NCBI GenBank assembly: GCA_030374765.1
Contig: JARGXX010000121.1
Span: 744,001-808,000 of the forward strand
Reading direction: 5' to 3'
Length of the DNA stretch: 64,000 bases
Source of the DNA: Agarophyton chilense
Lineage: Eukaryota > Rhodophyta > Florideophyceae > Gracilariales > Gracilariaceae
This document shows, one piece after another, positions 11,087-60,288 of the stretch (positions are counted from its first letter, which is position 1; each line of letters begins with the position of its first letter). A program made the position numbers and the translations under genes. The notes beneath the pieces are model-generated. The model had not been told where the DNA came from, ran no database searches, and saw only the letters and a list, made by a program, of their open reading frames with translations.

Positions 11087-11205
11087 CGCCGTAGTAGGAA
11101 CGGTCAGGCGGTCGCCGGCGCCTCCACTTAATGAGCCCGAGAATCGCGACGCTCCCGTACTTAATCCCGGACTCTGTTCACATCCTCGTATGGTGCGACT
11201 CACAC

Positions 11206-21120: not shown

Positions 21121-21203
21121 GATTTGGACACCCAAACCAACCTTCGTTCGGCAGTGTGGAAAAGCGCGCAGTATGCTCTGCGGTGCAGACGGAATTTGAC
21201 AGA
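20711..21203 (+). repeat. Left arm of the RBR/helical-repeat inverted repeat
   Basis: The reverse complement of this arm is found in two pieces, 22178-22575 and 59402-59533, now separated by the copia nest. Before that insertion the arms were about 490 and 530 bases with a loop of about 974 bases (21204-22177). The arm ends with a plus-strand scrap of the RBR B pocket (TNLRSAVWKSAQYAL), while the same RBR sequence is on the minus strand in the other arm. Confidence 0.8.
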
Positions 21204-21363
21204 ACTGCCTTCGGTTGCAATCGGATATGTACATCCCAACGGAGCGCTACAACTGTCTGCTGCACCAAACTCACCTTCAGACCTCCATGTCGTCCCCATC
21301 GGTACCTTGCGACACATTACCATCTTCCGCATCTCCTGAATCAGTCTCTGTACTGCTCACAAC

Positions 21364-22255
21364 TCAACCTGATCTTTCGATGACTTCTTGCACCTCCCGC
21401 CGCACTGCGGTACATCTTGCGTCGACAACCGGCCCGTCGAAACTCAGTGGTCGATACCGTCTTCTCTCCCGGCTTCTGTGACTCACTGCAACATTTCCGA
21501 TAGGACTTTCTCCAAAGGCGAATGGTGACCGAGTACCCGGTGTCATTGAACCCAGATCGTTGCCTTGACTTCTCCGCACGCTGTGCTGTCGACTCAGAGC
21601 CATATTCCTCGTGGACGGTGACATGGGAGAAACAAAAATCGATCCGATTTGTTTTGGGGATCTTTTTGTCTTCATGATGCGCATAGCACTCTGCAATAAT
21701 TTACGATCAATATCCTCAAACATTTTCTTTTGTTCCCTTCCCTGACGGCGGCTTGCCCGTCTGGAAAGGTCATTCAAACCTTCTGAAGCTTGGTCGTCTG
21801 CCTTACTCGCTCGCAATGCTTCCGCTAATCTCTTTGCATCTCGGCCTCCATTATCTTCGCCCGTCAGTACGATGAAGTTGCTCATGTAAGGCACAAACAC
21901 TTCGTTATAGAAGCGAATGATATCGCCTGTCTCTTCAGCCGTCGATTCCGGTCGTGGCCCACTATCATCTGCAGCATCTTCCGCCAACAAATGCCCGAAA
22001 TCTCCGAGAAAAATGTTATGGGACACTGGCGGAGAATTGCTCCGAAATGTGGGATCACTTGTGTGCTCCAAATGATTGTAGTGCCACACGATATGGCGGA
22101 ACTGCAGTTGGATATGTTGGATCTGGGCCACGCCATCCATCACAAACAGGACGATCAAGTCAATATGTCTGTTGACTGTCAAATTCCATCTGCACCACAG
22201 AGCATACTGCACGCTTTTCCACACTGCCGAACGAAGGTTGGTTTGGGTGTCCAAA
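21364..22255 (-). pseudogene. RBR copy B: B pocket and C-terminal region
   Basis: This is almost the same as copy A (11689-12575): NRHIDLIVLFVMDGVAQIQH, RFYNEVFVPYMSNFIV and TPGTRSPFAFGESP are all present. The 5' side stops at TNLRSAVW and runs into the helical-repeat fragment at about 22255. In copy A that point continues directly into LGRLGPT. The upstream part of the same gene now lies at 59628 and beyond. Copy B is therefore split by a gene-fragment insertion, then by the copia nest, and cannot encode RBR. Confidence 0.75.
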
Positions 22256-22575
22256 TCAGAGGATCGCAGGCAAGAGAGAGAGAGCATTGCTAAGCAACGA
22301 GTGCGCGCGGTTGGCAGCGTGCCGGGGCATTATGCGGGCGTACTGCTCGTCGCGCAAGACCGTGAGAAGGGTTTCGAGTGCATGGTTGGGTTTGTTGAGC
22401 AAAGAGACGGCGTCCATGACGGCCCACATGAGCGTGGTGTGATGAGCGGTGAAATTGGGCTGATCGGATGCGCACAGGGACGAGAGCAAGTCGGGAAGTA
22501 GGGCGGCGACTACTTCAAAGTGATATTCGTGAGGGTGATGGAGCACGGCAAGAAGCGGGGAAAGGATGGCGTGCG
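22178..22575 (-). repeat. Right arm of the inverted repeat, first piece
   Basis: Its reverse complement matches 20790-21203. The arm is cut at 22575 by the insertion of copia element C and resumes at 59400 after the target duplication GTGCG. Confidence 0.8.
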
Positions 22576-25299: not shown

Positions 25300-25531
25300 A
25301 TGAATGACATCGAAAGGCCACATGAATTCAATGAAAACTCCGAACCGACTGCTGACACTGCGGCTGTCGACACTGATTTTGGCACATATGCATTGAAAGA
25401 CGATGTCACTGACAGCATAGGTGACAGAGTCGAAATCTTCTGGCCGTTAGAGGACCAGTATTATTCCGGCACAGTGCATTCTGCCGTGGACGACGGGCTC
25501 GTCAATTTTTCACTATGACGACGGCGGCAAG
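25300..25531 (+). pseudogene. pol: Element C Tudor-like segment between integrase and RT
   Basis: The frame reads VTDSIGDRVEIFWPLEDQYY, SGTVHSAVDDG and then, after one extra T in a T-run near 25508, HYDDGGK. It continues across the element 2 insertion as EVLAL. The pattern W.L...YY.G.V...DDG...YDDG.KE.L.L is like a Tudor/PWWP-type beta barrel. In other proteins such domains bind methylated Lys or Arg. Its role in this element is inferred only. Confidence 0.55.
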
Positions 25532-26325
25532 TGAAGTGCAACCCTCGTGAGGGCCGTTTTCCAGGACTTGGTTGTTTTTCCGCCTCGGGGGATACTTGTG
25601 AGATCTATGAGTAGTACCGCTACTAGCGGGCTGGCGTAGCCAGGTGTATACGCGTTGTACGCGAAGTGCACCGGCGGCCGTGCGTCGTGGCCCCGATTCG
25701 GGTATGACTTACCCACGTGTACCACGGATGGCCCAGGACAGGTTGGCACAGCATAGCTGGACATTTTTCTATTTATTTAGCTTTATTACACTAGGTTAGG
25801 GAGCTCTCTACAGTATTCTACACTATATAGTGCCAGGGCGATCTCGCCCTGACACTCGGTAAACCTCCCCAACCAGGGTTCTTGGTTCTAAGTCTTTTTC
25901 CGCTTTCGCAAGTCTTCCACACTCTACGGAGGTGAAGCCGCGTTACTAACGGTAGACTTATCCACCCTGCGTCAACAGGAGACTCACCGCTGTTAGCGTG
26001 TATATGTTTCATACCACTGCCGTGTTCTCGCCCCAGTATTGGGTTTGCTACATATTCCTTTTGGCTCTCGTGGCCCATGCCCCCGATCGCCCCCACTGGG
26101 TGGTCCCTCCTTTATCACTTGCCCACTCCCGTGGAATACAGCTCATACCTGGTCTGCTCCCTTCTAGCATCCCGCACTCTCCCCGCTTGGCGTGCCGGTG
26201 AACCTCGGCCTTACACCCCGACTTAGTCGTGTTCACTCCGGAGAGGCTCCGTCGCCGTGCTACCCTCCTTGGAGGAAGACTCGGACATCTTCGTGTGTTT
26301 CCGCCGCCCTTGGCGTTGCACTACA
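25532..26325 (+). repeat. 5' LTR of element 2
   Basis: It begins TGAAGTGCAACCC and ends GTTGCACTACA. A 7-bp hairpin CAGGGCG/CGCCCTG lies near 25835-25852. The AT-rich CTATTTATTTAG near 25770 reads as a possible TATA on either strand. Confidence 0.95.
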
Positions 26326-26328
26326 AAC

Positions 26329-26348
26329 TGGTCTCCCGACTTAGAAGG
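26329..26348 (+). other. Primer-binding site of element 2
   Basis: TGGTCTCCCGACTTAGAA starts three bases after the LTR. Elements 3 (37286) and 4 (48317) have the same site with at most one change. The primer tRNA should end TTCTAAGTCGGGAGACCA. Confidence 0.8.
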
Positions 26349-26485: not shown

Positions 26486-28613
26486 ATGTCACGACTACCG
26501 TCGGAAGCGGAACCCGCGATCACTCGGAGCCGTTCCGTCAATTACGTGGTGCCTGCGGACCCTGGAAGAGTTCCCCCGCCGTTACCTCAAGCCGCTCCGA
26601 AAGGCAAGAGTAAGGGGTCGAACTCCTCCAAGAACAACAAGCTACCGCCTAAGGCGTCGAAGAACGGACCCAATTCTGGTGCTGAACCGGCCCCTGCCGT
26701 GGATGACCCGGCTCCTGCCGACGAAAAGGCCCAGAAAAACGAGTTCCACATCGACATAAACTCAAGTGTGAGGCAGCAGATCCGCGAAATGCGGGAAGCG
26801 CACAATGCCTTCGTGGGAGAGTTCGAAGCCCTGCGTTCCAGGTGTGATGGCTCTTCTATGAAGGAAGTGATTGACGACCTCCGCGTGTTGTGGGCGGACG
26901 TCAACACCCTGTTGGAATGTTTTGGTGGTCCCGCCGCTTACGTGGAAGGTGTCGAGACCCGATTCAATCGTGTTAGCGCCCGTCTCCAGACGTTAGAGCA
27001 AACCATCTTGATGGAAGACGTCCCGGAGAAGCTGGTTGCTGTGTCGCACCGCGAAACACGAGAGGAAAAGGGACGATACCCGCCGTCGGCGTGGAAAGCG
27101 TGTCAGCAATGACTCGGACTCGTCGAACTCCTCACGGTCGTCGCGTGGCTCTCACCATTCAAATGGGTCGGACTCGTCAGATTCGTCTTCTGAAGATGGC
27201 CATCGCAGGCGTTCATCCCGTTCTAAACGGTCGTCTACCAACCAAGGTGTGATCCGCGCCCACGAGAAGAGAAGGAAACACTCCGGGTTGAAGGAGCTGA
27301 AATGCACCAACCCCCTGTACATGAAGTTGGTTTCTTACCGATACTATCGGCTAGAGAACTCCTCTTTGGATCGCACGCCCCGTGGCACGGGTAGAGTGAA
27401 GGATTGCATAAATCGTATGCAACTGTCCCTCAGGAACCAGAACTTTTCTGGAGGAGACTCCATTTTGGTGTTGGATTTCCTTGCGAGGTTCGTCGCCGAA
27501 GCGGATATTCTCGGTATGACCGAAGGACAGGCGTTTATTGCACTCCCGTACTTTATGAAAGGCCTCGCCGAGGATCAATACCATTCTGTAAGAGGTTCGT
27601 CTAGAGCCTCCGAAGGAGGGGTAACCTGCTGGCCAGAAGCAGTACAATACCTCTTGAGGTCCTACGCCACTAATCACGCGATTCAGTCGGCCATTCTCGC
27701 TCTTTGCGATACGCGCCAGAAGTCTGGAGAAACGGAAACCGAATTCTCGGTGCGCCTGAACAAGGCTTTCCACTGTAGTGGGAACGTACACTCCGCCGGA
27801 GAGCGCTGCACCATGTTCATCGATGGACTGGACCCCGCTATCCGAACACTCGTGGCCCGTTACCGGGAAGACCGAAGGAAAACCACGTATCTGGAGTTGG
27901 TCCAACACGCGCAAGCGGAAGGTGACGCTTTAAGAGCTCGTGCCCCCAGACACAGGTCGCAAACCGCCAAGGCGTTGGTAATGGAAACGAAGTCGCCATC
28001 CCTATCGCTGATTGCGAGTGAGCGCCCCCAACAGGAGTACGACAACGTACACTTCGCCCGAAGCGATATCCATTCGGTCCCGACAACCGAACTACCGTCT
28101 ACGACGGACGACTCATATGACACGGCCCAGGATGGACCCCTGCTGTACGCAGACTCTCCCCGTGTTCACGGACCTCGCATCCCGTATTCAAACGGTGCGC
28201 TCCGACAGAGTCGCCCTGGATGGAAGGATACCCGCCAAGCGGTGAAGTTCACGGATGCTCGCTCCGGTTTGCAGCCCTCACGCCAGGGACTCATATGCCA
28301 CATATGCTACGAACACGGTCACATTTCACCGGACTGTATCCTCACCATGAGGGAAGTAGCCCGAGTAATCGGTAATTATGAGGCGTTGACCCCAGTGGAA
28401 AAGCGGATTGTTCCGATGACGTCGTATCTTCGAGCGAAGATCGATTTTCCACGGAGTATTCCGGAGGCGAAACCGCGCCATGCGTTGCTTTACCCTGCCG
28501 AGCAGGCTCCCGACCACCGCCCCGTTCCTTCAAACCCCGCCGCTGGCGCCCCATTGCTAGTGGTTCAGGATTCTGAGGCCCCGCCTCAGGCGGATGGGAC
28601 TCAGGAAAACTGA
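26486..28613 (+). pseudogene. gag: Element 2 gag with one frameshift
   Basis: The start chosen is ATG 26486 (MSRLPSEAEPAITRSRS), at the position of the element 4 start. An N-terminal coiled-coil-like stretch (QQIREMREAHNAFVGEFEAL) is followed by a Ser/Arg/Asp-rich region. The capsid-like core follows (SYRYYRLENSSLD, YLLRSYATNHAIQSA, CTMFIDGLDPAIRTLVARYR). The zinc knuckle CHICYEHGHISPDC (about 28295-28336) is a perfect CX2CX4HX4C. A frameshift near 27070 splits the gene. Element 4 has no break there, so this is a mutation. The normal product assembles particles and packages RNA. Confidence 0.88.
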
Positions 28614-28668
28614 TTTCGGGAGTCTCCCCTTCGGGAGAGGCGTCCCCAACAGTGAGGTTGACGACGCC
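28604..28668 (+). promoter_or_regulatory. Candidate -1 recoding signal at the gag-pol junction of element 2
   Basis: The gag stop is at 28611-28613 and pol is in the -1 frame. TCTCCC (28623-28628) and GGGAGA (28633-28638) form a 6-bp hairpin with loop CTTC. A second pair, GGCGTC and GACGCC (28639-28644, 28663-28668), follows directly. Element 4 has the same structure at the same distance. The slip site here (GGAAAAC, 28604-28610) is not a perfect XXXYYYZ. Confidence 0.5.
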
Positions 28669-31021
28669 CGAGGCGTCTCCGCCTCGCTCCCCGGTCACAA
28701 TCCTCACGAGGAAACAGGCCGTCTCAGACGTGGACTCTGAACACTTTGGTGTTCTACGTCGACCGTGGAAACGTGTTCGTAACCGCCGGTTCCCGGATAG
28801 AGTCTTAGTAATGGCCAAGCGCAATTACAAGGTGTATGCCGACCTTGGCCTTTCTACCCAGTTTATCGTTCGAGTCCTTACTGTTTTGGACACAGGTGCT
28901 GGTCCGAATTTCATCGTGGAGTCGCTGCTGCCCCCGCCCTTGCGGTCTCAGATCCGCCTTGGCGTGGCGCCCGACGTCGCGGACGCGAATAACAACCCGT
29001 TTTCAACGGTTGGAACCGTCGCTCTCGTCGTTCGCTTGGGCTCCTTCGTGGTGAAACTAGACTTTATTGTATGCCGGAAATTGGCTGCCCCCATCATCTT
29101 GGGATGTGACTTCTGTGACAGATTCATTGACGCCATAAGGCCCCGCTTAAAGCGTTTTGAGATGGAAGACGGCTCGTCGGTCCCGATTGTCCGTCGTCCG
29201 CTGCGGCGTGCCTCCAAGAAGCACCTACCGCTCCCTGCCGCGCAGGAACCTCCACCCGCTTCTCGGGAGTCAACCAAGCTCCGCGTGGCTGCGTCTGTCC
29301 GAATCACGCCAGAGTCCCAAGTATGGGTGCGTGTCACTTCCCGTCAACACGGTTTACGAGTCATTCAGCCTCTCTCATCTCTATACGATGGATATCAACT
29401 CGCCGTGGCGAATGGAGTCGCGCAGATTGTCCCAGACAAGCCGTTCACCGTGCTCGTTGCCAATCTGGGCTCCACCCCCCAGTCACTGGTGAAAAACCAA
29501 GTTATGGGATCGGTAATGCCTCACCCCACCGCGATGGTCGCCACTAGGCTGACCGCTGCCGAAGTCCTCGGTCTTGTTCACTCTAAGGAGGGGGAGGAAT
29601 CTGCCGTCCAATCACCGAATGATTCGGAATCGCAACCTGCCGAAACAGAAAAGAAGCCCGTTCCGACGAGTTACGACCGGGTAGACCCCGTGAAAGAACT
29701 CGAGGAACTCGACCTCGGTCATGTACCGGAGTCACACCGTGAAAGTCTGCGTGAGATGTCACGGGAGTTTACCACAGTGTGGGATGGCTCTCTTGGTGAG
29801 ATAAATACAACGGAACACCGGATAGATTTATTGCCGAACACCCGACCGGTGGCTCAACACCCTTACAGGGCAGGCCCCAAGGCTCGAGAAGAGGAACAGT
29901 TCAAAGTGGAAAAAATGCTCCGAGCTGGAGTGATCGAACCGGCTCAGTCGCCGTGGGCATCCCCAGTGGTACTGGCTCCGAAACCCGATGGGTCCTGGCG
30001 CTTTTGCATCGACTACCGTCGCTTGAACGATGTTACCGTCAAGGACGTGTATCCGATCCCACGAATGGATGAGTACATCGACTCTCTCGGCACTGCTACC
30101 GTGTTCACGGCTTTGGACGCCAATTGGGGATATTGGCAGGTTCCCGTTAGGGAGGAGGACCAAGATAAGACTGCGTTTGTCTGTCACTCGGGACTCTACC
30201 GTTTTAAACGGATGCCTTTTGGTCTAACCAATGCTCCCGCTACCTTTCAGCGTGCTATCGACATTTTGTTGGCCCACTTTAAGTGGCGTACTTGCCTCGT
30301 CTATTTGGACGATATCATTGTATTCTCAGACAATCTGGATGACCATCTCACCCATGTCAGGGACATAATGACCACGCTACGTGATGCTGGAATAACCGTC
30401 AAACTGAGGAAATGTGAGTTCTTTACCGATACTGTGAAGTATCTCGGGCACATTATCCGCCCTGGACGTGTAATGATCGAGGAAGCTCGAGTGAGGTCCC
30501 TTCGCAAGGCGAAAGAACCCGCTACCCAGACGGAACTGCGCTCCTTTCGAGGATTGGTCAACTTCTACCGACGGTTTATCCCTAATTTCGCTGACATCGC
30601 GGCCCCCTTGAACGTGCTTCTGCGGAAAGGTCAACCACCTAAACTGGACCCCTTTACGTCCGCCCAGACGGATGCTTTTAACTCTGTTAGGGAGGCTGTC
30701 ACATCAGCACCGATTCTATCGTTATTGAAACCCGGACTACCGTTTTCCGTGGACACAGACTCTAGCGACTACCAGGTAGGCTGTGCGCTCCTTCAAACTA
30801 CTCCCGAAGGAGAACGCAAACCCATTGGGTACTGGTCACGCTCGCTCAATGTCCACGAGCGGAACTACTCCGTGTCGGAGAAGGAGTGCCTCGCAGTTGT
30901 GTGGGCACTCTCTACACTCCGCCCCTACCTCACGGGGGTGCACTTTACCGTTTACACGGATCACTCGTCCCTACGCTGGCTCATGACCATCTCGGAGCCG
31001 TCAGGCCGCTTAATGCGTTGA
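28614..31021 (+). pseudogene. pol: Element 2 pol: protease, RT, most of RNase H
   Basis: The frame is open from the gag stop and has no obvious own ATG at its head. Protease: VLDTGAGPNFI and later IILGCDFCDRF. RT: GSWRFCIDYRRLN, FTALDANWGYWQ and YLDD (YLDDIIVFS near 30303). RNase H: SVDTDSSDYQVG, SEKECLAVVWAL and VYTDHSSLRW. The frame ends with a TGA at 31019-31021 that replaces the Trp codon in MRWRLRL of element 4. A single G-to-A change therefore stops an otherwise complete RT/RNase H. Confidence 0.92.
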
Positions 31022-32821
31022 AGACTCCGCCTCGCGGAATATGACTTTGAAGTGATCTACAAGAAGGGCACTCAGAACGCGCAAGCGGACGCGCTCTCGC
31101 GTTTACCCACGAATGGGGAAGCTCTATCCGTCGATGACGAGGATATACCTTGCTTCGTCGTAGACGATAAAACACCGGGGGACCCGGATTGTTTACACGA
31201 TAAATGGAACGAAAGCCCGGAATCGGATGATGATATTGACGCATTGCTCGTCTCAGACGATTCACAGAAACCCCCGCCACCGACGTTGGAAGTAACCGAA
31301 ATGGGTCAACAATCCCTCTCTGAGGATGATGGTTCTCGGCACACAACAGTGGCTCAGCCCACTGCCGTGGTTTCCAGACCTTCGGCTTTACCACACCCTA
31401 CCCGGGGACTCTCTGACTTGCCGATCTTATCGGACCAAAGCCAGAATGGCCTCTCTTCTCTCACGCCACAGCGCGGTGTCTACCCCCGCCCGTTGGGCGT
31501 TTCAACCACTCCCCATGCCGCTCCGTCTCAGGAGGGGGAGGAGGCTCAGCCGTCGAGCGTTGACCCGCAGCCCATGGGTCTTGGTTCTTCGACACCAGCT
31601 ACGCTGGAAAACTTAGAGCACGCCCTCGCAGGCCTCTCTAGGCCAAATCGATCGGAAGTGGTCCCTCGTACTGTACGGCAGGACACACCGGCTAAGCCGG
31701 GAAATCACACCGTAGCAGACGGGAGATTCACACCGAGCACGCTTGATGCTGGTTCAGAACCCGCGCGCAGTCGCGGACGCACTCCGAGTGTCTCGGTTGA
31801 CCCCGACAGCGTTGTCAAAAGCGCACCGGTCACCCCGGAGAATGTGCCCGTCAAGGACGGAAGCACCTCGTCGCCGAGTGAAGTTGAACCCTCGAAAGGG
31901 ATAGTTGAGGACGAACTCGCTCCCCGCAGGGGTTCCTCGCCGTGCACTTCGCCGCCCGTTGGTGAGGAAGGCACGGTTGACCCGGAGTTGCACGCCCGTC
32001 GCGGTACTGTGTCGCTTAAGGGAGCAGACATACCGGCAGCGCCGTTGCACACGCCCTCACGTGAGGAGGCGGAACGCAGCTCGGCGCGGAATACTACCAG
32101 CCATCAGCCGGATGTGTCACGTGACCAGACGACACCCGGCTCGGGAGAAACGCCAATCAACGCCCAAGGCGGCTCACCCGGCAAGGCACGACGCCCCGTG
32201 ATGAAACCGCCTCCCGCGTCAAGTCCAGCACCGTCGCGACGTATTTCACCCCGACGACTCGCGGAACGCGACCGCGAAACCCAGCCTTGGGATGAGTCCG
32301 CGTTCCGCCGAAGGGTAGCCTCTGCACGAGAACTCTCGGAAAGCATTCCGACCCAAAAACTGGGAGAATTGCCCCACGGGAAGGCCTCCGGCCGAAGCCG
32401 TCGAACTGACGCTCTTCGTCATGACGCCTTGGCGGAAGCAACCCGCCAAGCGGCCAAGGAAACCCGGAACCCGGTTTGTTCCCCTACCCAGGGCATGAAA
32501 AGGCAACGCCAACCCATGGACCCCTCGGGGGAAGGGCACAGTAGCCCACATGCACCTGCGGACGTACACCGGTTTGGTCCGGTGACGCGTACACGGCAAG
32601 GGCGGGAAGTCTACGAGAAGGAGTTCGTGGTCGACCACATAGTGGAGCACTCATACCATCCGGATAGTTATATTCAATACCTCGTCCGTTGGTACGGTTC
32701 AGGGCCCGAATGGGATTCGGATGAGCCGATGGAACATCTCCCACGTTCAAAGGTGGTGTCATATCACCGCAGAACGCGGACGGGAATCCCGGCATTGGTT
32801 GTCAAAGCCCAGGTGGGATAA
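31022..32821 (+). pseudogene. pol: Element 2 pol: RNase H tail fused to linker and chromodomain, integrase missing
   Basis: The same frame continues past the TGA for 600 codons without a break. It starts with the tether (NAQADALSRLP) and DDEDIPCFVVDD. Near 31250-31330 it jumps to the post-integrase linker (SALPHPTRGLSDLPIL; element 4 has VVPHPSRGLSDIPTL). Zinc finger, DDE core and SH3-like domain are absent, so about 1.3 kb was lost in frame. The long linker is rich in Pro, Ser and Arg. The chromodomain is at about 32620-32790 (EFVVDHIVEHSYH, YLVRWYGSGPEWDSDEP, VVSYHRRTRTGIPA). The product could not integrate DNA alone. Confidence 0.85.
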
Positions 32822-33000
32822 CACCCACCTCGGTGGAAGAGAAAAGAGAAGTAGGTTTGCTTGAGAACAGGCTAGTGAAGGAAGGTTTTGGGTTACACAA
32901 GTCACTTGGTTTTTATTCGAAGCTATCGATGGAATACCGAGCACTCGGGATACTACTCTAAGTCACAAGGGAAAACTCCCCATCGGGAGCGCGTGCCCCG

Positions 33001-34938
33001 TCACGGGTTCGGCTCACCGCCCCCGGGTTGGTTACCTCCCTGGAGGCGGGTGATCAAGGCCTCGCGCATCGCGGCAACATCGCCACTCGCTGCGTTGGTC
33101 CCCAGCCCCACCTGTCGCAGGAACTGGGAGATCACGGCCGCCTGACCCGCCGCAGCGGAGCTCGCATCGCCTGGGGCGGACGCCCCACCACTTGGGAGAC
33201 TCACCGGTGGAACCGGAGGTGGTCCAGCTACCGCGTACTCCGACCCAGCCCCCGCGGGGTTATCCAAATCCACGTAGGGCGTGGCTGACGCCCCCGCGTT
33301 AGAGGGACCTTCAGCTTCGGATCCCTCGACCCCCGCCTCGGCGTACGCTTCCCCGTCGTCGGGTTCGTTGTCCACCATTGGATAGTCGCCGTCGTAGACG
33401 TGGTAATATTCATCCGCGTCCACGAAACCGATCGGATGCCCCTCAGGGATATGGCGCGGTGCAAACTGGAGTTCGTTCGCTTCCTCCGCGGAGATTTCGT
33501 GCCCTTCCCAAGGGTCAAAGTATACGAAATCACCTCCCAAGGGAGTACGCCTTCCTGGTGACAGGTCCTGACCCCGGCTACCCACGGTGCGCCCGCTTTG
33601 TTCAATCGGAACGGTGGTCCAGTCCAACTGGTCGATGTAATCGAGAAGACCCGCCACTTCTCCGGCGTTGGTTACTCCACCAAGTGGGATGCTCTGGTCC
33701 AGGCTGCGAATCGCGGACCTCAACCGGAACGGAAGGAACCACAGTCTGTACTGGTCATACACCTCCCAGAGGATGAACACCGCCGCGCGGACTTCCCATT
33801 CGGTAATCACCACGGACCACAGTCCGGACTCGGGATCCTCGATGAGGTACGAACCGTAATACGTGATGATTGGTGGCAGCTCGATGTAACAGCCCCGGCA
33901 GGCCTCAAGGTTCGACCACCACGGTGGAATGAGGACATAGCGACCCCTTCGGTCGGCCACGCGAAGGCGTTTGATCTCCACGTTTTGATACGGGACCAAA
34001 TACCCGAATCGGGATCGTGCTCGACGCTCGAAGCGGATCAAGGCGAGGAAGTTGGCCCGCGCAAGTCGACGCATGTAGCGGAATTCTGCCCGGATAATCG
34101 GTCGCGTCCAGCACATGGCCTCTTGCCGTGCTATCGGGATGCCCCTCCACGAGAGTGTTTCCAAACCCGCCAGGCGGTCGACGTAATTAATCTCACCTTG
34201 AGTGCCGTAAAGCCGAATGTCGGTGCCGAGACCATCGGGGATGGGATATTCGAAAGGAGCCCGGCGAAGCCGTTGATGGCCAAGAAGGACGAAGGCCGCA
34301 TGAGCGGAAGCCGAGGTTTCCCTACCCCGGCGCGCCACAGCGTGGACCAGAACCGCTACGCGGCGTCGCCAATCCAACGAAGTTGTCGCCACGGCCGGAA
34401 TATCGCCCGGCAGCATCCCGTTTCTATCGGTGTACATCGCTATGAGCGCTTCGTTTAACACCGCAATCGGGTGGAACCACGGCGCAAGCCAGAGAACGGA
34501 CGCATGATGCCCAGGATGGCGCCCGACAAGCATGTCGTATGGCGGCCACCCTCTCGGGGGGAACATTCCGTACGGAGCAGCAGCCGCGTTCGCGATAGGA
34601 ATCTGCGGCGCAGCCGATGACGCGCTTTGCAAAAGCGGAGCGGACCGGAAGCCGGAGAAGTACCCCGCAAAGAGACGGTTGGGTTGATTGTTTTGGTTGC
34701 TCATCGGTGAGCGAAGAGGCCGGATGACCGGAAGAGGAGACCGGCGAAGCGGGAGACGATGCCGAGGAATCGGAGGACTGGCACGCAAGGATGCGGATTC
34801 AGTTGAGATGGAACGTTGAGAACGGTTGTTGCCACGAGACTGGAGTTTTGCCGCACTGCGTTTGTTGGCACCGGATGAAGTGGATCCCAGCGAGCTGGTT
34901 GCACTCTTATGCATTCGTCTCGGCGCGTCGCCCACCAT
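33001..34938 (-). CDS. Antisense gene of element 2, intact, 645 codons
   Basis: This opposite-strand gene runs from ATG (34936-34938) to its stop at 33001-33003, convergent with pol and 179 bases from its end. Residues 1-90 are basic and Ser/Arg/Pro-rich. Residues 125-440 form a compact region with LAPWFHPIAVL (151-161), CWTRPIIRAEFRY (276-288), RRGRYVLIPPWWSNLEAC (330-347), WSVVITEWEVRAAVFILW (374-391) and EVAGLLDYIDQLDW (427-440). An acidic stretch follows, then a C-terminal helix-like motif (FLRQVGL to SGDVAAMREAL, 606-628). The same blocks recur in elements 1, 3 and 4. There is no signal peptide, membrane span or known enzyme motif, so it is not a standard Env. A promoter would have to lie in the 3' LTR. 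Function unknown. Confidence 0.8.
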   Translation of the reverse strand: MVGDAPRRMHKSATSSLGSTSSGANKRSAAKLQSRGNNRSQRSISTESASLRASPPIPRHRLPLRRSPLPVIRPLRSPMSNQNNQPNRLFAGYFSGFRSAPLLQSASSAAPQIPIANAAAAPYGMFPPRGWPPYDMLVGRHPGHHASVLWLAPWFHPIAVLNEALIAMYTDRNGMLPGDIPAVATTSLDWRRRVAVLVHAVARRGRETSASAHAAFVLLGHQRLRRAPFEYPIPDGLGTDIRLYGTQGEINYVDRLAGLETLSWRGIPIARQEAMCWTRPIIRAEFRYMRRLARANFLALIRFERRARSRFGYLVPYQNVEIKRLRVADRRGRYVLIPPWWSNLEACRGCYIELPPIITYYGSYLIEDPESGLWSVVITEWEVRAAVFILWEVYDQYRLWFLPFRLRSAIRSLDQSIPLGGVTNAGEVAGLLDYIDQLDWTTVPIEQSGRTVGSRGQDLSPGRRTPLGGDFVYFDPWEGHEISAEEANELQFAPRHIPEGHPIGFVDADEYYHVYDGDYPMVDNEPDDGEAYAEAGVEGSEAEGPSNAGASATPYVDLDNPAGAGSEYAVAGPPPVPPVSLPSGGASAPGDASSAAAGQAAVISQFLRQVGLGTNAASGDVAAMREALITRLQGGNQPGGGEPNP

Positions 34939-34961: not shown

Positions 34962-34973
34962 AGGAAGGGGATA
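34962..34973 (+). other. Polypurine tract of element 2
   Basis: AGGAAGGGGATA lies directly before the 3' LTR and would prime plus-strand DNA. It lies only 24 bases from the start codon of the antisense gene. Confidence 0.8.
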
Positions 34974-35767
34974 TGAAGTGCAACCCTCGTGAGGGCCGTT
35001 TTTCAGGACTTGGTTGTTTTTCCGCCTCGGGGGATACTTGTGAGATCTATGAGTAATACCGCTACTAGCGGGCTGGCGTAGCCAGGTGTATACGCGTTGT
35101 ACGCGAAGTGCACCGGCGGCCGTGCGCCGTGGCCCCGATTCGGGTGTGACTTACCCACGTGTACCATGGATGGCCCAGGACAGGTTGGCACAGCATAGCT
35201 GGACATTTCTCTATTTATTTAGCTTTATTACACTAGGTTAGGGAGCTTTCTACAGTATTCTACACTATATAGTGCCAGGGCGATCTCGCCCTAACACTCG
35301 GTAAACCTCTCCAACCAGGGTTCTTGGCTCTAAGTCTTTTTCCGCTTTCGCGAGTCTTCCACACTCTACGGAGGTGAAGCCGCGTTACTAACGGTAGACT
35401 TATCTACCCTGCGTCAACAGGAGACTCACCGCTGTTAGCGTGTATATCTTTCATACCACTGCCGTGTTCTCGCCCCAGTATTGGGTTTGCTACATATTTC
35501 TTTTGGCTCTCGTGGCCCATGCCCCCGATCGCCCCCACTGGGTGGTCCCTCCTTTATCACTTGCCCGCTTCCGTGGAATACAGCTCATACCTGGTCTGCT
35601 CCCTTCTAGCATCCCGCACTCTCCCCGCTTGGCGTGGCGGTGAACCTCGGCCTTACACCCCGACTTAGTCGTGTTCACTTCGGAGAGGCTCCGTCGCCGT
35701 GCTACCCTCCTTGGAGGAAGACTCGGACATCTTCGTGTGTTTCCCCCGCCCTTGGCGTTGCACTACA
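34974..35767 (+). repeat. 3' LTR of element 2
   Basis: This has equal length to the 5' LTR with about 19 differences by eye, 16 of them transitions. It is followed directly by the target duplication GCAAG and copia RT sequence. Confidence 0.95.
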
Positions 35768-35772
35768 GCAAG

Positions 35773-37282: not shown

Positions 37283-37285
37283 TTT

Positions 37286-37303
37286 TGGTCTCCCGGCTTA
37301 GAA
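37286..37303 (+). other. Primer-binding site of element 3
   Basis: TGGTCTCCCGGCTTAGAA lies three bases inside the LTR and differs from the element 2 and 4 sites at one base. Confidence 0.8.
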
Positions 37304-37599
37304 ACCTTTGGAATAATTGAACGGACCAATGGAACGAAGAATCATCCGGATTCTAACCTTTGGTTTGATTCCCCAACGGACCAGAAGTACATAAGCGACC
37401 GCCATTATGCATGCAGGAAGCACACCCAACCAACCAGACCATAGGACCCCTACGGCAGGACGAATTGCGACTACAATGCCGGTGATTTAGCCTAACCCTC
37501 AGGTTGATACCGCTAGCGACCGTAGGAGCAGAAGGAGCCAGCCGCAAGAAGTACTGACCCCACTGGATAACCCTGAAACGATTCGCCGAGAACCCACGG

Positions 37600-39627
37600 T
37601 GACAGCGCGTTTACGAGAACGCCTCACCAGGACCACCTTTAAACCAGGGAAACCTCAAGAAGAAACCCCCCCCAGACCGAAGGCATTCGAGAAAACCTGC
37701 CCGCAGATCTTGCCGACCTTCTCTGGCCCCGTCTCCGTGAGCTCTGCTCAGCCCACGTGGATTCCATTATGGACGTGCAACTCGCTACGGCGATCGCTGA
37801 CCATACGGATTGCCTCATCGCGCGAATCGTCCCTAAGGTATTGGAGTCTGACTTATTCATAGACTTCTTCCTACAGGCCTTTCAAGCAGCCATCACCCGC
37901 CAGGCAGGCAATTTGGTCCCTAGTACCACCCCACCACAAATTAACCATCCGGTTTTCACATGACAACCCTCTACCCAACCCCCAGGAGTGGCGGAATTAT
38001 CCGCCCCTCGCCGGGAATACCATCAGGAAAACCCCATGATGGGCCAATCTAGGAGCAGAAGAGAAGCTCTGCGTCTAGATGAGAGAGAGGTTGCCCATCA
38101 GGAGAATCGGAAGGAGGGACAAGCGAGGAGCAGAAGAGAAGCTCCGCGTCTAGAAGAGAGACCGCTGGCCCCACCTGACGGATTATACGAGGTACAGCGA
38201 CCTCAGGGCCCCATCGGATCTGGTAGAGAGATCGACCCTTTAGGTCTTTACTCCGCTGGAAAGAAGAAAAGAAGCAACCATAGGAGAAAGAAGAACAGAA
38301 GAAGCAAAAGAAGAGACCATTCGGACACGAGTGATTCCGATTCGGCCTCAACCCAAACGACCGACTCGGAAGTGGATGAGGCTGCCGTTCGAGGCCTCAG
38401 ACCACTGACAACCACAAACGAACTTTTCGTCAAGGTTGTAGACTACCGGAATTACCGGCTGGCCGACAGGTCCGCGAAATATTCTGGTTCGGTGTCTCGC
38501 AGAGTCGCCATATGGGCCCAACGGATGCAACTAACCATTACGGACAAGTTCTCGGGTTCCGATCCCATTTCTGTCCTTAGGTTCCTCAGTGTGTTCCGTA
38601 CGTCCTGTGATCAGAACGGTGTCCACGAGGGCGCCGCTCTGTACCATTTCCCATTCTTCCTTACAGGACAGGCGCGTGACCGAGTGGTTTCGAAGATATC
38701 TGGCACAACTGACCTCGTGGATGCTCAAGACCGTGAACTCCTCAGGTCATACCCTCAGGTTGTTCACTACTTCTTGGAAACTTACCCCACGGATGACGTT
38801 ATAATGGATGCCCACCAGGAAGTAATATCCTTTAGGCAGAGCTCCAACATGACCGAATCGGCTTTCGCAGACGACCTATGGAACAAGGCTTACTGATGTG
38901 GAAAGGTGTTCTCCGAAGGGCGGCTTAAACGCCACTTCATCACGGGATTGTTCTCTGCCATTCGAACACATGTGCGCAATTACCACACGGAAAACCCGCA
39001 ATACTCCTTCCGAAGGCTCGTTACTTACGCTAAAGGTTATGGCAAGACATACAAAACCTCCAGGCACAACGCTGATATAACCAGAGGACAGGTAACTCCA
39101 TTGCATAAACCCAATCAAGCCCATTTGGTTAGCTCCACGGAGTCGGACGTGGATGCTTCACTCCATTACCGCGATTCGAGAGACGTCCTTGCGGTCAATT
39201 TCAGTACTCCTCCGTCTGGACCCTCATCATCATATACCTCTCAGGGTACTTCAGCGGCCACTGGACCACCCACATCCAAGTATTTTCCCTTTCCGCCGCG
39301 CAAGGACGTTTTTTTCGCTCCCCAAGGGCCTGCTTCCTCTGCCTGTCACTGACCCAACCTTGTGGCTGTATGAGTTATCTACCTAAGGACGCACGAAAAC
39401 CCCTCCTAGCCCTAAGGGAACATAATTACCGGGTGCAGAGATCCGAAGGAATGTATAACAGGGCACAGCAACGAACCACAGGGACCCCTGGAAGCTCACA
39501 CTATGCCACGCCTCCAGACACTCCGATCAAAGCCCCACAGGTCCACTCCATTGTAGATCCAACGTACGACCCCGTGGAAGAACCCTATTCTCAGGACGAA
39601 ACGGAAACCCCATCGGAAAACTCCTAG
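37600..39627 (+). pseudogene. gag: Element 3 gag
   Basis: A frame open from about 37690 reads NLPADLADLLWPRLRELCSA and DSIMDVQLATAIADHTD, then a TGA (37961-37963). It continues with two copies of a short unit (RSRREALRLDEREVAHQENR and RSRREAPRLEERPLAP) and a Lys/Arg/Ser-rich region. The core (VVDYRNYRLADRS, ISVLRFLSVFRTSCDQNGVH) aligns with the gags of elements 2 and 4. A TGA at 38894-38896 and a frame change near 39352 break it, and no clear zinc knuckle remains. The start codon could not be placed. Confidence 0.75.
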
Positions 39628-39755
39628 AAAAACGGTTCGAGGCAAATCCTCCATCTTTAAGCCCCTGCCTCAACCAACTGGACGTTCATGAGCCAAAGAG
39701 CTCCTCATCTCCCAATACAAACCACCCACAATGGATAACTCAGGATGAACCACAA

Positions 39756-40200
39756 TTGGAACACAGTAACGACCCCTTCTGTATCCTCAGGAAAGAGAAC
39801 TGTAAAGCTCGAGTAACCGTAGGACTCCGTTCCAGCAACTCTCGAGTGATCACAGCTGTATTGGACACAGGCGCTGGTCCCAGATTGGGCCATCCTAAGC
39901 TGCTCCCACTGGGTTGGCAAGATTTCGTTCAGGCAAGGAAGACCCCAAGGATTACCGATGCGTCTTGTGGACCAACGGACATTAAAGGGATAGTACCACT
40001 TTAGCTCAAGGCAGGACAATTCAAAGTCCGCACGTGGTTCCTCGTATGTCGTAACTTAGGCACTGAAGCAATCCTAGGAACCTCCTTTTTCGACCGATAC
40101 ATTAAGGCCATTTATCCAAACCTTAGGCAAGGCGCGTTTTACCGCGCACCTTCTATCTCCATAACTGGTTCAGTTCCAGGGCCAGAAGCTAATTGTAAAC
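39756..40200 (+). pseudogene. pol: Element 3 protease
   Basis: The aspartic protease site VITAVLDTGAGPRLG is intact near 39857-39890. After a stop (TAG, 40002-40004) the second conserved stretch EAILGTSFFDRYIKAI follows, matching PIILGCDFCDRF of element 2. Confidence 0.75.
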
Positions 40201-40434
40201 GGGCGGTTGTCTCCGAAAACACGAAGTCCAATAAGGTTTCCCGTCAAAGGCCATGACGATACCCCCGACGCCCTAAATCGCTGTATCGGTCCATTCCCAG
40301 TCCTCAGGTCTCGTAACGATTCAGAATCACCCGAAAACGATTCTGAAGCATTTTAATTTTATGGCCAATGGTGTAATGGACATCCACCCTAACAGGTTCT
40401 TTTTGGTCACAATCTGCGGTTACCTTCAGGTACA

Positions 40435-42216
40435 ATGATTTGTATCACTGTCCCCGCTCCCATGGCCATTATGGAGGCCCAACTGGATAACCTTGCGATG
40501 CTAACTCCCGACGAGGACGTCGACTCTTGGGAAGGGACGGTCGCCATCGGCGCAGAATTCGAATCCTATAGGCCTCAGGTACTTGATCTCCTCAGGGAAC
40601 ACCAGGCCATGTGGTCAGGTAGATTGGGCATAATAAGAGCCACTACACACCACATTGACCTTCAGGATGATGTTAATCCACAGTTCCAGCACCCATGCCG
40701 CACCGGCCTTAAGGGTAGGGAAATTGTCGCCGACCGGATGGACAAGATGCACAAAGCTCAAGTCATTGAGACGACGCCTCCAAACCGTTCCTAATGGGCA
40801 AGTCCCTTTGTACTTGTGGCGAAGAAAGATGGCTCCGTCAGGTTCTGTGTCGACTACAGGAAGCTGAACGCAGTAACCAAGAGGGATTCATACCCGATAC
40901 ACCGCATGGACGACTGTATGGATTCTTTAGGCGAAGCTGTCGTATTTACCACACTGGACGCTAACTCTGGATACTGGCAAATCCCTATGGCCGAAGACGC
41001 GAGAGCGCTGAAAAACTTTACCACCCATGAAGGTCTGTTCATATTTACTCGAATGCTCTTTGGTTTGAAGAATGCACCAGCCACGTTCCAACGGGTAACG
41101 GACATTATACTGTCCAGAGTCAAATGGAAGTTCGCCCTGGTCTATTTTGATGACGTCATAATCTTCTCACGGACCGTAAAGGAACACTTTCGCCACGTGA
41201 AGAAGGTGCTAACAATCCTACAGAACGCTGGAGTAACACTGAAGCTCCGCAAATGCGCGTTGTTACAGGCCCCAGTGGACTATCTCGGTCACGTCGTCCT
41301 CCCAGGAAATCTAAAGGTGGCTACACGGACAACAAATGCGATTCGCCAGATCAAGCCTCGTAGGACCCACACGGAACTAAGATTTTTCGTGGGCTTGTGC
41401 AACGTTTACCGACGGTTCGTCGAAGGGTTTGCCAAGATCTCGGCCCCTCTAAACGCGATGCTGAAGAAGGGAACACCTTGGGAGTTCGAAGCCCTTACGG
41501 ACGCCCAGTACGAAGCATTTCAGACCCTAAAGGACAAATTGCTGAACCCACCCATATTGGCCCTACCAGAGCCCAATAGGCCTTTCGTCTTGGACAAAGA
41601 AGCCTCTGATGTCCAAGTGGGTTGTGCACTGCTACAGGCACAGGAGTCACCGAAGGACTATCGACCTATTGGCTACTGGAGCAGAACGCTCACCAGCGCG
41701 GAGCAAAAGGACAGTACTACCGAAAAGGAATGTCTAGCCAACGTATGGTCTGTATTGACATTCCGTCCGTACGTCGAAGGAACCAGGTTTATCAATAGGA
41801 CAGACCATGATTCACTCCGCTGGCTACTCAATATGACCGATGCATCGAGTCGCCTCGCTAGGTGGCGCCTCAGGCTGTCAGAATATGACTACGAGATAAC
41901 CTAAAGGCCAGGCATCAAGCACTAGGCAGCAGATGCCCTGTCGCCAATCATCACCTATGGAACTGATGACACCCCATTGGACGATCTAATTCCCTTCCCC
42001 TTTACAGATGATGGACCTCAGAACTACACGGAAAGAGATGACCTTATGGGTAAGGTTCCATCGGAGGATCCTGAAGTAAAGAAGAACGAAGTATACCTAT
42101 TGGACTGGGAAACAGTACCGTCCAATTTGGCACCACCTCAGCTTAATGCGATAGCCCCGGAGGAAAAAGAACTCCCCCCGATAGCTATTGGGGAACTCCT
42201 ACAGGCGCAGGTCTAA
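40435..42216 (+). pseudogene. pol: Element 3 RT and RNase H
   Basis: RT motifs are SVRFCVDYRKLNAVTKRDSY, FTTLDANSGYWQIP and YFDDVIIFSRT, where the usual Tyr-X-Asp-Asp has Phe at X. RNase H has LDKEASDVQVGCALLQ (the first Asp of DTDAS is changed to Lys-Glu), TEKECLANVWS and NRTDHDSLRW. In-frame TAA codons stand at 40792-40794 and 41902-41904, with another stop near 41932. The enzyme is inactive. Confidence 0.88.
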
Positions 42217-42243
42217 GACGAGTACTGCAAGTAAACAGCCCAG

Positions 42244-43382
42244 TTGGTAGGAACCCCAGGATGCCTATTCGAGTATGACCGATTTGGACTACTACGTCGC
42301 CGCTCAACAATGGATGGCGCACTCCAACGGGTAATACCAACTTTGCTAAGGGCGCGATTCCTATACCTCGCCCATTTCTCCCGCTCGGCTGGCCACCCTG
42401 GAGGCCAAAGAATGTACCAGACCCTAAGGAAGTTCTTCTACCGGCCACTAATGGCGCAGGGCATATGGCAAACCGCACGGAACTGTGCATCTTGCGCACA
42501 AATCCGAGGGTTACGCGCCAACCATCAGGCCAAACTGAAGCTCTTCCCCGCCGCAGGTCCAATGGAATTTGTAGCAATGGATATACTTGGGCATTTGCCT
42601 AAGTCGTCCCATGGGAAACGGATTGTTTTGGATATAACCGATAGGTTTACCAGACTTACCCAAGTCCTACCCCTGGGAAAGACAACGGCCACAGATGTAG
42701 CCACGGACTTGTTGTCTCACTGGGTATATCGATATGGCATTCCACTCTACCTCCTTACGGATAACGGCAGCTAGTTTATATCCAAATTCTTCTCGCATGT
42801 TTGTGCTACCTGAGGTATCAAACATGTGAACACCACGGCGTACCACCCACAAACCAATGGCCAAGCCGAACGCTTCAACCGCACCGTCTAGACCGATTGG
42901 CACACTACGTTTCGGAGCACTAATTGGACTTGGACGAATATGTTGGGCCACTGGTTTATGCCTACCACACGCAGGTGAACGCTTCTACAGGGACAACTCC
43001 TTTCGTCTTAACGCTAACGAGAGCGCCGCCGCCGATAGCTGTTGACCTTCAGGAGTCTATCATACCCCAGAACATAACTGATGGGATGACTCCTGCCCAG
43101 GCGAGGCGCTACTCAGGCCAACGCATTGACCGCATTCTGTAATCGGCCATAACTGTACTAACCAAAGCCCAACGGCGCTACAAGTCCAACTTCGACAAAG
43201 CCGTTTGGAACACACCGACCTTTGGGAAAGGAGATCTGGTTTACCTGGATCGGCCACCGAAGGACAGTGAAGAACTCGAGAACACTACGCAGAAGCTCTT
43301 ACCCCGCTCTACGGGACCATACAAATTCCTTAAGGCCAAGGATCACACCATCACTTTACTCATTGACGGCCTACAGGACACC
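42244..43382 (+). pseudogene. pol: Element 3 integrase
   Basis: The integrase has an HHCC finger (LAHF, GHPGGQ, then NCASCAQ) and a complete set of DDE residues: VAMDILGHLP, LLTDNGS and, after a stop (TAG 42772-42774), HPQTNGQAERFNRTV. Frame changes follow near 42890. The C-terminal domain is visible as KLLPRSTGPYKFLKAKDHTI near 43290-43350. Catalytic residues survive although the frame does not. Confidence 0.85.
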
Positions 43383-43973
43383 GTGTCTATTGACCGCGTG
43401 ACACGAGCTCCCAGTTCCTCCGGACCACGAACGTCCCAGCCCCCTGGCCCAACGGAAGCACCACGACCTCAGGTCGACACTCAAGTCTCCACACCCCCTA
43501 AGGCAGTTCCCGAGGACTCGACTAGCCCCACGGACACAATGGTCAGTGCCAACTACTATGACCCATCGCTCCCAACCGACTCCGATGGATTCGCCCCTCT
43601 GGACCACACTCTCCTTCCGGACGATGAACACAAAACGGAATATGTGATTGAGCGCATCATATCCGCCGGTATGGGAGAAGACGGAACTATGCACTATCGC
43701 GTCCGCTTGTTCGGCTACACACCTGAGGAAGATACTTGGCAAGAGACTCAAACAATTCCGGCTAGTTTTATCGCCCGCTATTGGCGCAGAATCAGCCACT
43801 TAGAGCGCGACCTTCAGGAGGGGGCAATCATTGGTCCGAATAATCCAACCATTGGCCCGAATAATCCCAAAACGACTCCCAAACCGCCTCCCGACACGAC
43901 TGTTCCCCGGAGCACGACGGTTCGTCGTAGCTCCCGCATCAGGGAACTAATTCAGTCCTTGGGAGACACCTGA
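43383..43973 (+). pseudogene. pol: Element 3 linker and chromodomain
   Basis: Following SIDRVTRAP, a Pro/Thr-rich linker leads to a chromodomain at about 43635-43790 (EYVIERIISAGM, YRVRLFGYTPEEDTW, FIARYWRRI). Unlike elements 2 and 4, about 60 further residues follow, ending VRRSSRIRELIQSLGDT. The frame stops at TGA 43971-43973, 182 bases before the end of the antisense gene. Confidence 0.85.
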
Positions 43974-44155
43974 GGAAGACACGGGACGCTCTCGAGATGG
44001 AACGCCGGCCCGGGGCACGCACATTTGAGATACAAAAAAGACCTTGGGAAAGCACAAGCACTACTTTATTTAACTTACTCGAGTGACTAACAGAGGCCTA
44101 ACAGCCCTCGGAATGACCTCAAGATTCGCGGAAGCGCTTCGAACACCAACAGGAC

Positions 44156-46333
44156 TCACTGGGGCGGCGCAGGAATAACTCCGTCGTTTTCATTGGAACC
44201 TGCAGCAGCTAAACCGGGATTACGGTCACCCGAAGAGCCAACTGGACCACCCGAACCGGCCCCAGCGAGCCAAGCACGCTTTTTCGGCGGGTATTCTCCT
44301 GAGGAACTATTGTAGCGACGGGAAACCTTCCGGTCACTCAAATTGAGACCATATCGGGCATCCAATTCGGCAATAACCCTCTGGGACATCGCCTGCGCAT
44401 TCTGCTGCAGGATATTGACCATGGCGGTCTTCAGGTCCTGACCCTGTTGGACAACCGCGGCGTAGCGAGCCGAGCGACACGCCCAGGAGCATGCTTCCCT
44501 CAGGACTGTTGCAATGTCCATCGAGGCCGTGATACCAACGGTACGGCAGAAATGACGGAGATCCGCGGCGGCAGCCGTGACCGAAGCAGGAAAGTGGACC
44601 AACGGAGAGGACGGAGCGATGTCGACGCCCCCAGTGGACGTCTGAGCAAGTGCCTCGCCTACAGGACTTTCGGTTTCGACAGTAACCTCACCAGGAGGAA
44701 TAGTCACTTGGGCGACGGGCGGCTCACATGAGAGCTCATCCTGAGGAGCAGAGCCAGGAGGAGCCGGAGGAGGGGAAGCAGTCGGCAAAATCACAGATGA
44801 CTCGACCGGAGGATGAACGCCCTCCACGGGTAAGACGAAGGGATCTTGACCGAAGGATTCTGCGTCGGACATACCAGCAGGAACCATCGCCGTGGCTTCC
44901 ACATCAGGCTCGAAGCACAGAGGATCGAAACCAATGGCCTTCGGATAATAGTCGGGCACATGACGCCTCGGAAATTACGATGGTTGATTCCTCAAAGACC
45001 TGGCAGGATAGGCACGAGCGTCGTCCCGATCCTGAGGATGCAGCGGATTCGCCGTGAATGAGTCGGTATCCCAGTCATACCAAAAGAACCCGGGAGTCTT
45101 GCCCCACTCCACCTCTAGTACATGATCCAAAAGGGCCTCGGTCTCCTCGACGTCGAACTGGGTTTCACGGACGATGTCTTGTATGCCCAGTTTTCTTAGG
45201 AAACGGATCATGATGTCCGGGAGCGGGATTAGGCGAGCTCGAGGACCGGGTATGTTCTCATCGTACCACACCCTCCAATCCTCCGAACGGACATCACCAC
45301 GGATTCAGTATTTCGCGGTATCCCGAAAGGCCGTAAGGAACATCACGCCGAACTCGACGAAGAGCCCCTGCCAGGATAGCCAGGACCTTCGGTCATGGTC
45401 AGCGCTCATGAGTTGGGACGAGTGGTACGCCACCACGGACGGCTTGGAAACCAGAAGGAGTGGCGAGACACGCCAATACACGGCCCATTGGTTCTCACCC
45501 TCCTGGGACAGGGAAAGGTACAACGGAATGCGTTTGTCGGCGCACATGTCGTGGAACTTTACTTGGTGCCAACAAAAGAATAACCCCGAGGATTGACGGA
45601 GACGACCATCGGGCTCGTGCATCACATTCCAATAGACCCGGTTGGACATCCAGAATAAGTGGTCGTACGTTGGCCGGAAGCACATAAGCGCCAAGAGGTT
45701 GTGACCAGCCGGAGGAGAGCGCACATGAGGTGAGATGAAGTCGGTATATAGGTCCGAAAGGAGTTTGTTCACCCTGAACTGGTAGTCGGCTTCTTCCTCG
45801 CAGCGGACGTACGGAATGTCCGCTTGGATTAAGGTGCGACATCGCGTCGCCGAACGCGGATCCACAGGACAATTCAACCATCGGTTATACCACGAGACGC
45901 TGCGCGCGTTCTTGCTGCCCCTCCGGAATTTTGGTATTTTGGAAAACCTTCGGGCGTCGAGAGAAATGTGGCAAAACCTTTGGTATTATTCCACGGAGGA
46001 CGGAAGAACGGCATGACGCACTGCCCGCGGGTTTCTTCCGATGGTATGGTCATAGCGGTCCCCCGGACGCTCGTAGGCTACTTGGTATCCCGAGGAGCTA
46101 CCCGCTGGGATTTTTGAGGTCACGGTACGGCTAGTCCCAGGGTGGTTCGCCAGGAAATAGATGGGAGAGCAGGTGGAGGAGACATAGTCCAAAGGAAGTA
46201 CGGCGTATCCGGCGGGCTTATAAGGTGATTTCGGCATCGCGCGCAACCAATGGAAAGGTACCACGAAGAAGAGACGAAGTAACGTAGTTGACCCGAACGG
46301 ACTGACAGGCGTCAAACACGGTGGACGAAGCAC
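44156..46333 (-). pseudogene. Antisense gene of element 3, diverged, with several stops
   Basis: One minus-strand frame covers 46333 to 44156 with at least three stops (near 45986, 45305 and 44975). It shares blocks with element 2: GHNLLALMCF (ANFLALIRF), ETEALLDHVLEVEWGKTP (GEVAGLLDYIDQLDWTTVP) and near the end DLRHFCRTVGI (VISQFLRQVGL) with VLREA. It adds a Gln/Ser-rich tail (NILQQNAQAMSQRVIAELDA). Position, orientation and order of blocks are as in element 2, so homology is likely despite low identity. The start is uncertain. Confidence 0.6.
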
Positions 46334-46634
46334 GGAGGGTCGCCGAGGGAAGACCGGAGACGAAGGAAGAACCCAATGGCCCGTCTCGGCAACGCGACGC
46401 GAGGAATATGCCGGCGATGCACCTACGGCCAGCGGTCACGGCGCGTGACAGTTTCACTCCTTAGGCAAATTAATTGCCCTTCGGCGCCAATGGTCAGCTC
46501 ACGCGTCCCCGTATCCCCGCACGTGGTGCCGACGCGACGTACCGTCGCACCCAATGGTATTGGTAGCAATGAAGTGCACGCATCCCCTGGAGCAGTTATG
46601 AAACCATCTGGACTTCGCCGTGACGGTCGAATTC

Positions 46635-46648
46635 TAAGGAGGGAGATA
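46635..46648 (+). other. Polypurine tract of element 3
   Basis: AAGGAGGGAGATA lies directly before the TGTGAAGG start of the 3' LTR. Confidence 0.75.
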
Positions 46649-60270: not shown

Positions 60271-60288
60271 ACAATCATTCGCTCAATT

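Follow-up and report, generated by a model that had tools for sequence, protein, structure and literature searches.

A probable antisense accessory gene in chromodomain-bearing Ty3 retrotransposons of a red alga

We have found that chromodomain-bearing Ty3 elements of the red alga Agarophyton chilense carry, between pol and the 3' LTR, a minus-strand coding frame that has been held by purifying selection since before the reverse transcriptases (RTs) of the element families reached 49% identity. The frame was studied in a 64,000-nucleotide stretch of contig JARGXX010000121.1 (the window, to which all coordinates refer), where four elements contain it. We believe this frame to be an accessory gene on the antisense strand of a red-algal chromodomain Ty3 clade, with its own mRNA and with a regulatory protein that acts in trans, and we give this reading as a whole a probability of about three in four.

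Results

Element 2 contains an intact antisense ORF

The original prediction held that each of the four elements has a minus-strand gene that converges on pol and fills the space from the chromodomain towards the 3' LTR. Related ORFs do lie in the identical place in all four, and the ORF is intact only in element 2. There we verified a frame that runs from ATG to TGA and is stop-free across 645 codons, as had been claimed, and the gap between the pol stop and the antisense ORF was measured at 179 nt, the same value as first given. Element 2 is made up as follows:

25527-25531 and 35768-35772: GCAAG target-site repeats, flanking both LTRs
25532-26325: 5' LTR, 97.6% identical to the 3' LTR
26329-26337 (+): likely primer-binding site, TGGTCTCCC
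27036-28613 (+): gag-like ORF piece, so called from its place and its element-4 counterpart only; no Pfam match
28652-31021 (+): pol piece with RT and RNase H
31052-32821 (+): pol piece ending in the chromodomain (32624-32767)
32912-32917 (-): AATAAA, 84 nt past the ORF stop, found in 45 of 48 copies
33001-34938 (-): antisense ORF of 645 amino acids, ATG to TGA, with homologues and codon constraint
34962-34970 (+): polypurine tract, adjoining the 3' LTR
34974-35767: 3' LTR, the presumed site of a putative minus-strand promoter

The LTRs of element 2 start with TG and finish with CA. Its chromodomain match in Pfam is weak (E 0.0018) and falls short of the curated cut-off; the motif was also seen by eye. 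The pol of the window copy is split into pieces; elsewhere in the element-2 family there are copies whose pol is open for 1,926-1,975 codons.

An open frame of this kind could be a chance product of high GC, the stretch being at 61% GC, or the shadow of a plus-strand frame, one of which shows some constraint-like signal (see below). When 2000 first-order Markov copies of the stretch were made at this GC content, the longest stop-free run in the six frames had a median of 195 codons and reached at most 404, well short of the 645 observed. Homologous ORFs also occur across six families and three other species, and the plus frame in question contains 19 stops in element-2 copies. The Markov maximum, the plus-frame stops and the constraint between families together lead us to rule out both forms of this explanation, whose remaining probability we regard as negligible.

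Elements 1, 3 and 4 carry related, interrupted ORFs

From the retrieved loci we told apart six antisense-ORF families: A (element 2), A2 (L060 and L061), B (element 4), C (L059), D (element 1 and L062) and E (element 3 and L063). The ORFs of elements 1, 3 and 4 lie at the same place as that of element 2, each interrupted by stops:

2964-4782 (-): antisense ORF region of element 1, broken; L062-type match at 3054-4782
44065-44070 (-): AATAAA of element 3, 86 nt past the stop
44156-46435 (-): antisense ORF region of element 3, one frame with three in-frame stops
56094-56099 (-): AATAAA of element 4, 60 nt past the stop
56159-57085 (-): C-terminal part of the element 4 antisense ORF
57089-57934 (-): N-terminal part of the element 4 antisense ORF, with an in-frame TAA at 57086-57088

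In element 4, the two parts form one frame with a single stop, and the protein is 49% identical to that of element 2 over 591 residues (E 1e-157). The protein of element 1 matches that of element 2 directly over 92 residues (E 8e-8), and its type, D, was also recovered by profile comparison (97% probability, E 1.4e-10) and by HMMER (E 5e-8, with 500 shuffled controls). Type E, that of element 3, matches A, B and C weakly by profile (32% probability, E 5e-4), and its HMMER value (E 0.34) is non-significant, though it lies over all 500 shuffled controls; its match to the element-1 type has 90% probability and E 1.9e-6. As the direct match to element 2 is weak, we base the homology of element 3 on the link through element 1, on colinearity and on the identical position. 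The earlier claim that the proteins of the four elements have ordered blocks in common was thus upheld, by direct matches for elements 4 and 1 and by profile matches for elements 1 and 3.

The region 4500-11500 gave no match to the RT, integrase or antisense-ORF proteins of element 2. A 211-codon ORF at 6485-7120 (-) gives a weak chromodomain match (E 0.0079) and has 39.7% identity to the element-2 chromodomain.

The antisense ORF is retained beside pol throughout the genome

We searched the genome (79.8 Mb in 135 contigs) for further copies. There are at least 68 scored candidates (69 matches) of the element-2 type, at least 128 copies of the element-4 type, at least 141 (142 matches) of the element-1 type and at least 150 copies of the element-3 type; these counts are lower bounds, and a single copy can occupy two rows. 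A search with P0004 gave at least 98 places, in which the element-2 type is mixed with other groups.

The original prediction had named absence of the ORF from other family members as an observation that would speak against a gene. For the element-2 family we used 69 pol ends, from 72 listed long matches to pol less three that do not extend to the end of the gene. The antisense ORF lies just downstream of 59 of these 69 on the opposite strand, among the matches listed; 56 of the 59 come from the element-2-type list and three from the P0004 list. In these 56 pairs the gap between pol and the ORF, measured from match end to match end, ranges over 150-243 nt, and 43 of them have a gap of 185 or 186 nt. 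Three of the ten pol ends without a listed ORF were retrieved, and all three do carry it, at 88-94% protein identity; these three had been passed over in the list of ORFs, whose count is a lower bound. Absence was therefore seen at none of the 62 element-2-family pol ends, out of 69, that were listed or retrieved. Twelve of the 68 element-2-type antisense ORFs are without a listed pol.

The RT/RNase H regions of A and B are 80% identical, and that of A is 49% identical to those of D and of E. Divergence of the antisense ORF increases in parallel with RT divergence across the families.

The antisense frame is constrained between families

The antisense proteins of different families are 39-55% identical. 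When A, A2, B and C are compared with one another (six pairs), the minus frame gives a dN/dS of 0.21-0.39, ratios that are rough in that synonymous differences are near saturation (pS 0.65-0.73) and that the protein-guided alignment, from which runs of less than 25% identity were dropped, favours the tested antisense frame; where D or E is involved the ratios are less trustworthy, and two of them were incomputable and print as 0.00. The antisense protein is constrained, but several-fold less than pol, for which the reference pair of elements 2 and 4 gives a dN/dS of 0.08 over 276 codons.

The other reading frames do not account for this pattern. In four of the five, pN/pS is above 1 in the same six pairs. 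The remaining plus frame shares its third codon position with the antisense frame, which explains its values of 0.63-0.72 in these pairs and of up to 0.90 when D or E is one of the pair. Between A and B, the differences at the three codon positions of the antisense frame are.36/.32/.59, with position 3 differing most.

Within the element-2 family, the pairwise identity of copies is 95.1-98.4% (48 copies of at least 68). Grouped by the number of copies that have them (one, two, or at least three), variants give a dN/dS of 0.87, 0.83 and 0.93 in the antisense ORF, and of 0.94, 0.75 and 0.82 in the 3' part of pol of the same copies. The ORF and pol both look like sequences in post-insertion decay, and the within-family comparison is uninformative. 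The proposed dN/dS check on the minus frame was therefore borne out between families, where selection is purifying, and not within the element-2 family, where ORF and pol are both near-neutral. Stops provide the sole hint of constraint within the family: among the ORF variants shared by at least three copies there are none in 88, compared with about three expected, and in pol there is one in 72. No in-frame stop is present in 21 of the 48 copies (three of the 21 with gap letters), and there are 1.23 stops per 1000 codons in the ORF and 1.81 in pol.

In sum, constraint between families, retention beside pol, conservation in other Gracilariaceae and a minus-strand poly(A) signal in three of the four judgeable families agree with the original prediction of a real gene kept by selection. 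We regard it as nearly certain that the antisense ORF is a protein-coding gene under selection.

Signals for a probable separate minus-strand mRNA

The spacer between the convergent genes contains a minus-strand AATAAA in elements 2, 3 and 4, at the positions given above. The internal region of element 3 (9.4 kb, 37283-46648) contains no other; elements 2 and 4 have additional minus-strand AATAAA elsewhere. In family B the signal lies 60 nt past the stop in seven of eight loci, and the eighth has ATTAAA. The spacers of A and B contain no exact match longer than 8 nt, and one of their two 8-nt matches is the AATAAA signal. The chance of finding AATAAA in a spacer of such composition is about 3.5%. 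AATAAA was not found in the 129 nt past the stop of A2 (L060), and in element 1 a TATAAA lies 77 nt beyond the stop; the spacer sequences of C (63 nt) and L063 (37 nt) are too short to judge. Judging from these sequence signals, a separate minus-strand mRNA that would end at the spacer AATAAA is highly probable.

We propose that this mRNA would be initiated within the 3' LTR: with the antisense ATG 35 nt away from it in element 2, and 47 nt away in element 4, a promoter would have no room elsewhere. No TATA-like box is common to the LTRs of elements 2 and 4. The element-2 LTR contains a perfect palindrome, CACTATATAGTG (35263-35274), each base of which is kept in 96-100% of 48 copies. As a candidate bidirectional promoter, this TATA palindrome was dropped, being without a counterpart in the element-4 LTR.

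A relative of the element-1 type, 263 residues long and 62% identical, is encoded by a EukProt Trinity transcript (P0006). This transcript was set aside as proof of expression, since unstranded RNA-seq of sense genomic RNA would give the same ORF.

Convergent genes, the short spacer between them and the placing of the minus-strand AATAAA might also mean that the minus-strand RNA matters and not a protein: convergent transcription would then yield double-stranded RNA that limits copy number. Antisense RNA control of retrotransposons is discussed in the part of PMC7264820 drawn on here. An RNA-only role, however, makes no call for amino-acid selection between families, nor for full-length open frames such as those of the stop-free copies counted above. 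We consider it rather improbable.

The named homologues of the antisense protein are uncharacterised

The original prediction recognised no relative of the antisense protein. The named homologues, among the matches listed, are uncharacterised proteins from three genera of Gracilariaceae, the nearest being those of Gracilariopsis chorda, Gracilaria domingensis and Agarophyton chilense; an A. chilense protein is 89% identical to one copy in this genome. Each protein-database search scored the best 8000 candidates, and more distant relatives may exist. Pfam, PHROGs and NCBIfam gave no credible match to the antisense protein, the sole lines at E up to 10 having E values of at least 0.23, and a profile search of the PDB gave no match. 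Two lines for P0001 in a sequence search of the PDB, with E values of 0.17 and 0.26, were taken as chance; both were to a mitochondrial protein, over a low-complexity stretch. In IMG/VR there were three pattern matches, none of them confirmed, and an Rfam scan of the window gave none at gathering.

The proteins of A, A2, B and C and the outside proteins can be aligned across most of their length. They consist of a variable N-terminus, a conserved core of about 360 residues, an acidic linker and a conserved C-terminal segment: mean pairwise identity (A, A2, B, C and P0002) is 0.08-0.19 in residues 1-80, 0.42-0.64 in 121-480, 0.16-0.21 in 521-600 and 0.43 in 601-640. A, A2 and B begin with a basic quarter (pI 9.4-12.0), the corresponding pI in C being 5.4, and all four proteins end with an acidic quarter (pI 4.1-4.3). 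At the C-terminal end of L063 (type E) there is a PPKKRARL stretch, which we take to resemble a classical nuclear signal; an equivalent stretch is missing from the other family types.

The basic N-terminus of A, A2 and B, and the position of the ORF next to a chromodomain-bearing pol in the families seen, would also suit a structural or transport factor, with a role in the particle, in nuclear import of DNA or in the choice of integration site together with the chromodomain. The ORF, however, forms its own minus-strand unit outside the polyprotein, and its product has no profile similarity to the gag of the element. That comparison (hhalign probability 0.1%) also led us to reject a gag origin of the antisense protein. 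A structural or transport factor is in our view unlikely, if not to be dismissed.

An envelope-like protein might be suspected from D and E, each of which has one hydrophobic stretch (19-residue hydropathy of 2.04 and 1.82, respectively). The values for A, A2, B and C are only 0.93-1.35, the stretch in D includes a charged residue, and the gene is antisense; we find this identity very improbable.

Other repeats in the window

Two ORFs with a retinoblastoma (RB) B domain (PF01857) lie at 11689-12828 (-) and 21364-22287 (-), with E values of 3.7e-22 and 4.7e-16. They sit in a repeated unit (11525-12567 compared with 21200-22242, 97% identical). Further parts of the unit are repeated at 59628-62591, where they surround a Tc1/mariner-type transposase ORF at 60289-61284 (DDE_3, E 8.8e-17). 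The RB-like gene may be on a mobile unit.

Discussion

We propose a model in which the antisense gene would be expressed from its own promoter in the 3' LTR, its mRNA would end in the spacer that separates the convergent genes, and the encoded protein would act in trans on the life cycle of the element itself. By analogy with the systems described below, the protein would most likely be a nuclear regulator of the transcription of the element or of incoming DNA; such a role is proposed for the Grande and Retand proteins of plants and known for HBZ of HTLV-1. This nuclear regulatory role is tentative, and we put its chances at slightly less than even; silencing, copy number and nuclear targeting, the roles suggested in the original prediction, are likewise conjectural.

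The closest parallels to the red-algal gene are the aORF-3R genes of plant elements (Grande gene23, RIRE2 and Retand ORF4), which are antisense and lie between pol and the 3' LTR. In the parts of PMC7264820 and PMC11963269 drawn on here, the Grande antisense product is described as nuclear, with its own promoter, and the Retand antisense proteins as carrying TRP28 (PF04195); similarly limited excerpts of PMC6317226 describe the extra ORFs of plant elements as highly heterogeneous. Three marks of aORF-3R genes, namely the antisense place between pol and the 3' LTR, presence in most copies of a family and conservation of the protein between families, were found for the red-algal ORF; a fourth, a minus-strand transcript with its own promoter, is putative here, with the spacer AATAAA as an indirect sign. 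Unlike in plants, the host is a red alga and the elements bear a chromodomain, whereas Retand belongs to a non-chromovirus lineage. TRP28 gave no match at E up to 10 in the two sets of six proteins scanned.

Outside plants, Boty of Botrytis and Sclerotinia, a fungal Ty3 element, has an antisense gene, brtn, between pol and the 3' LTR, according to the portions of PMC7264820 and PMC8365987 drawn on here. The red-algal gene is like brtn in this described arrangement; fungal proteins were absent from the best 8000 scored candidates of each protein-database search. The HBZ gene of HTLV-1 is likewise on the minus strand, next to the 3' LTR. In HTLV an antisense promoter lies within that LTR (PMC7264820, in part). 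The red-algal gene also adjoins the 3' LTR, where its promoter is putative. Unlike HBZ, its product is without a bZIP or other recognised domain in Pfam scans, and the two have no sequence link.

A further comparison can be made with Ty1, whose copy number is controlled by a gag-derived restriction protein encoded on the sense strand. The red-algal protein would resemble it as an extra element-encoded product that presumably acts on the element's own life cycle; it differs in being antisense and not gag-like.

Antisense accessory genes are thus a known kind of gene. The protein family, the red-algal chromodomain setting and the retention across families look new, and no red-algal precedent for the antisense ORF is found among the open-access literature matches listed. 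A wider hypothesis would be that this undescribed protein family defines a red-algal chromovirus clade with a self-encoded regulator and a bidirectional LTR, which arose independently of HBZ, Grande gene23 and Boty brtn and predates the split of the families. We consider this possible, while leaning against it.

The role of antisense accessory genes of retrotransposons is unsolved, and the red-algal case provides an independent comparative system, with hundreds of copies and divergent families in a compact genome. With it one can also ask if bidirectional firing of LTRs is a solution that recurs. If our reading is true, the annotation of red-seaweed genomes would be missing a large family of retrotransposon proteins, or labelling its members hypothetical.
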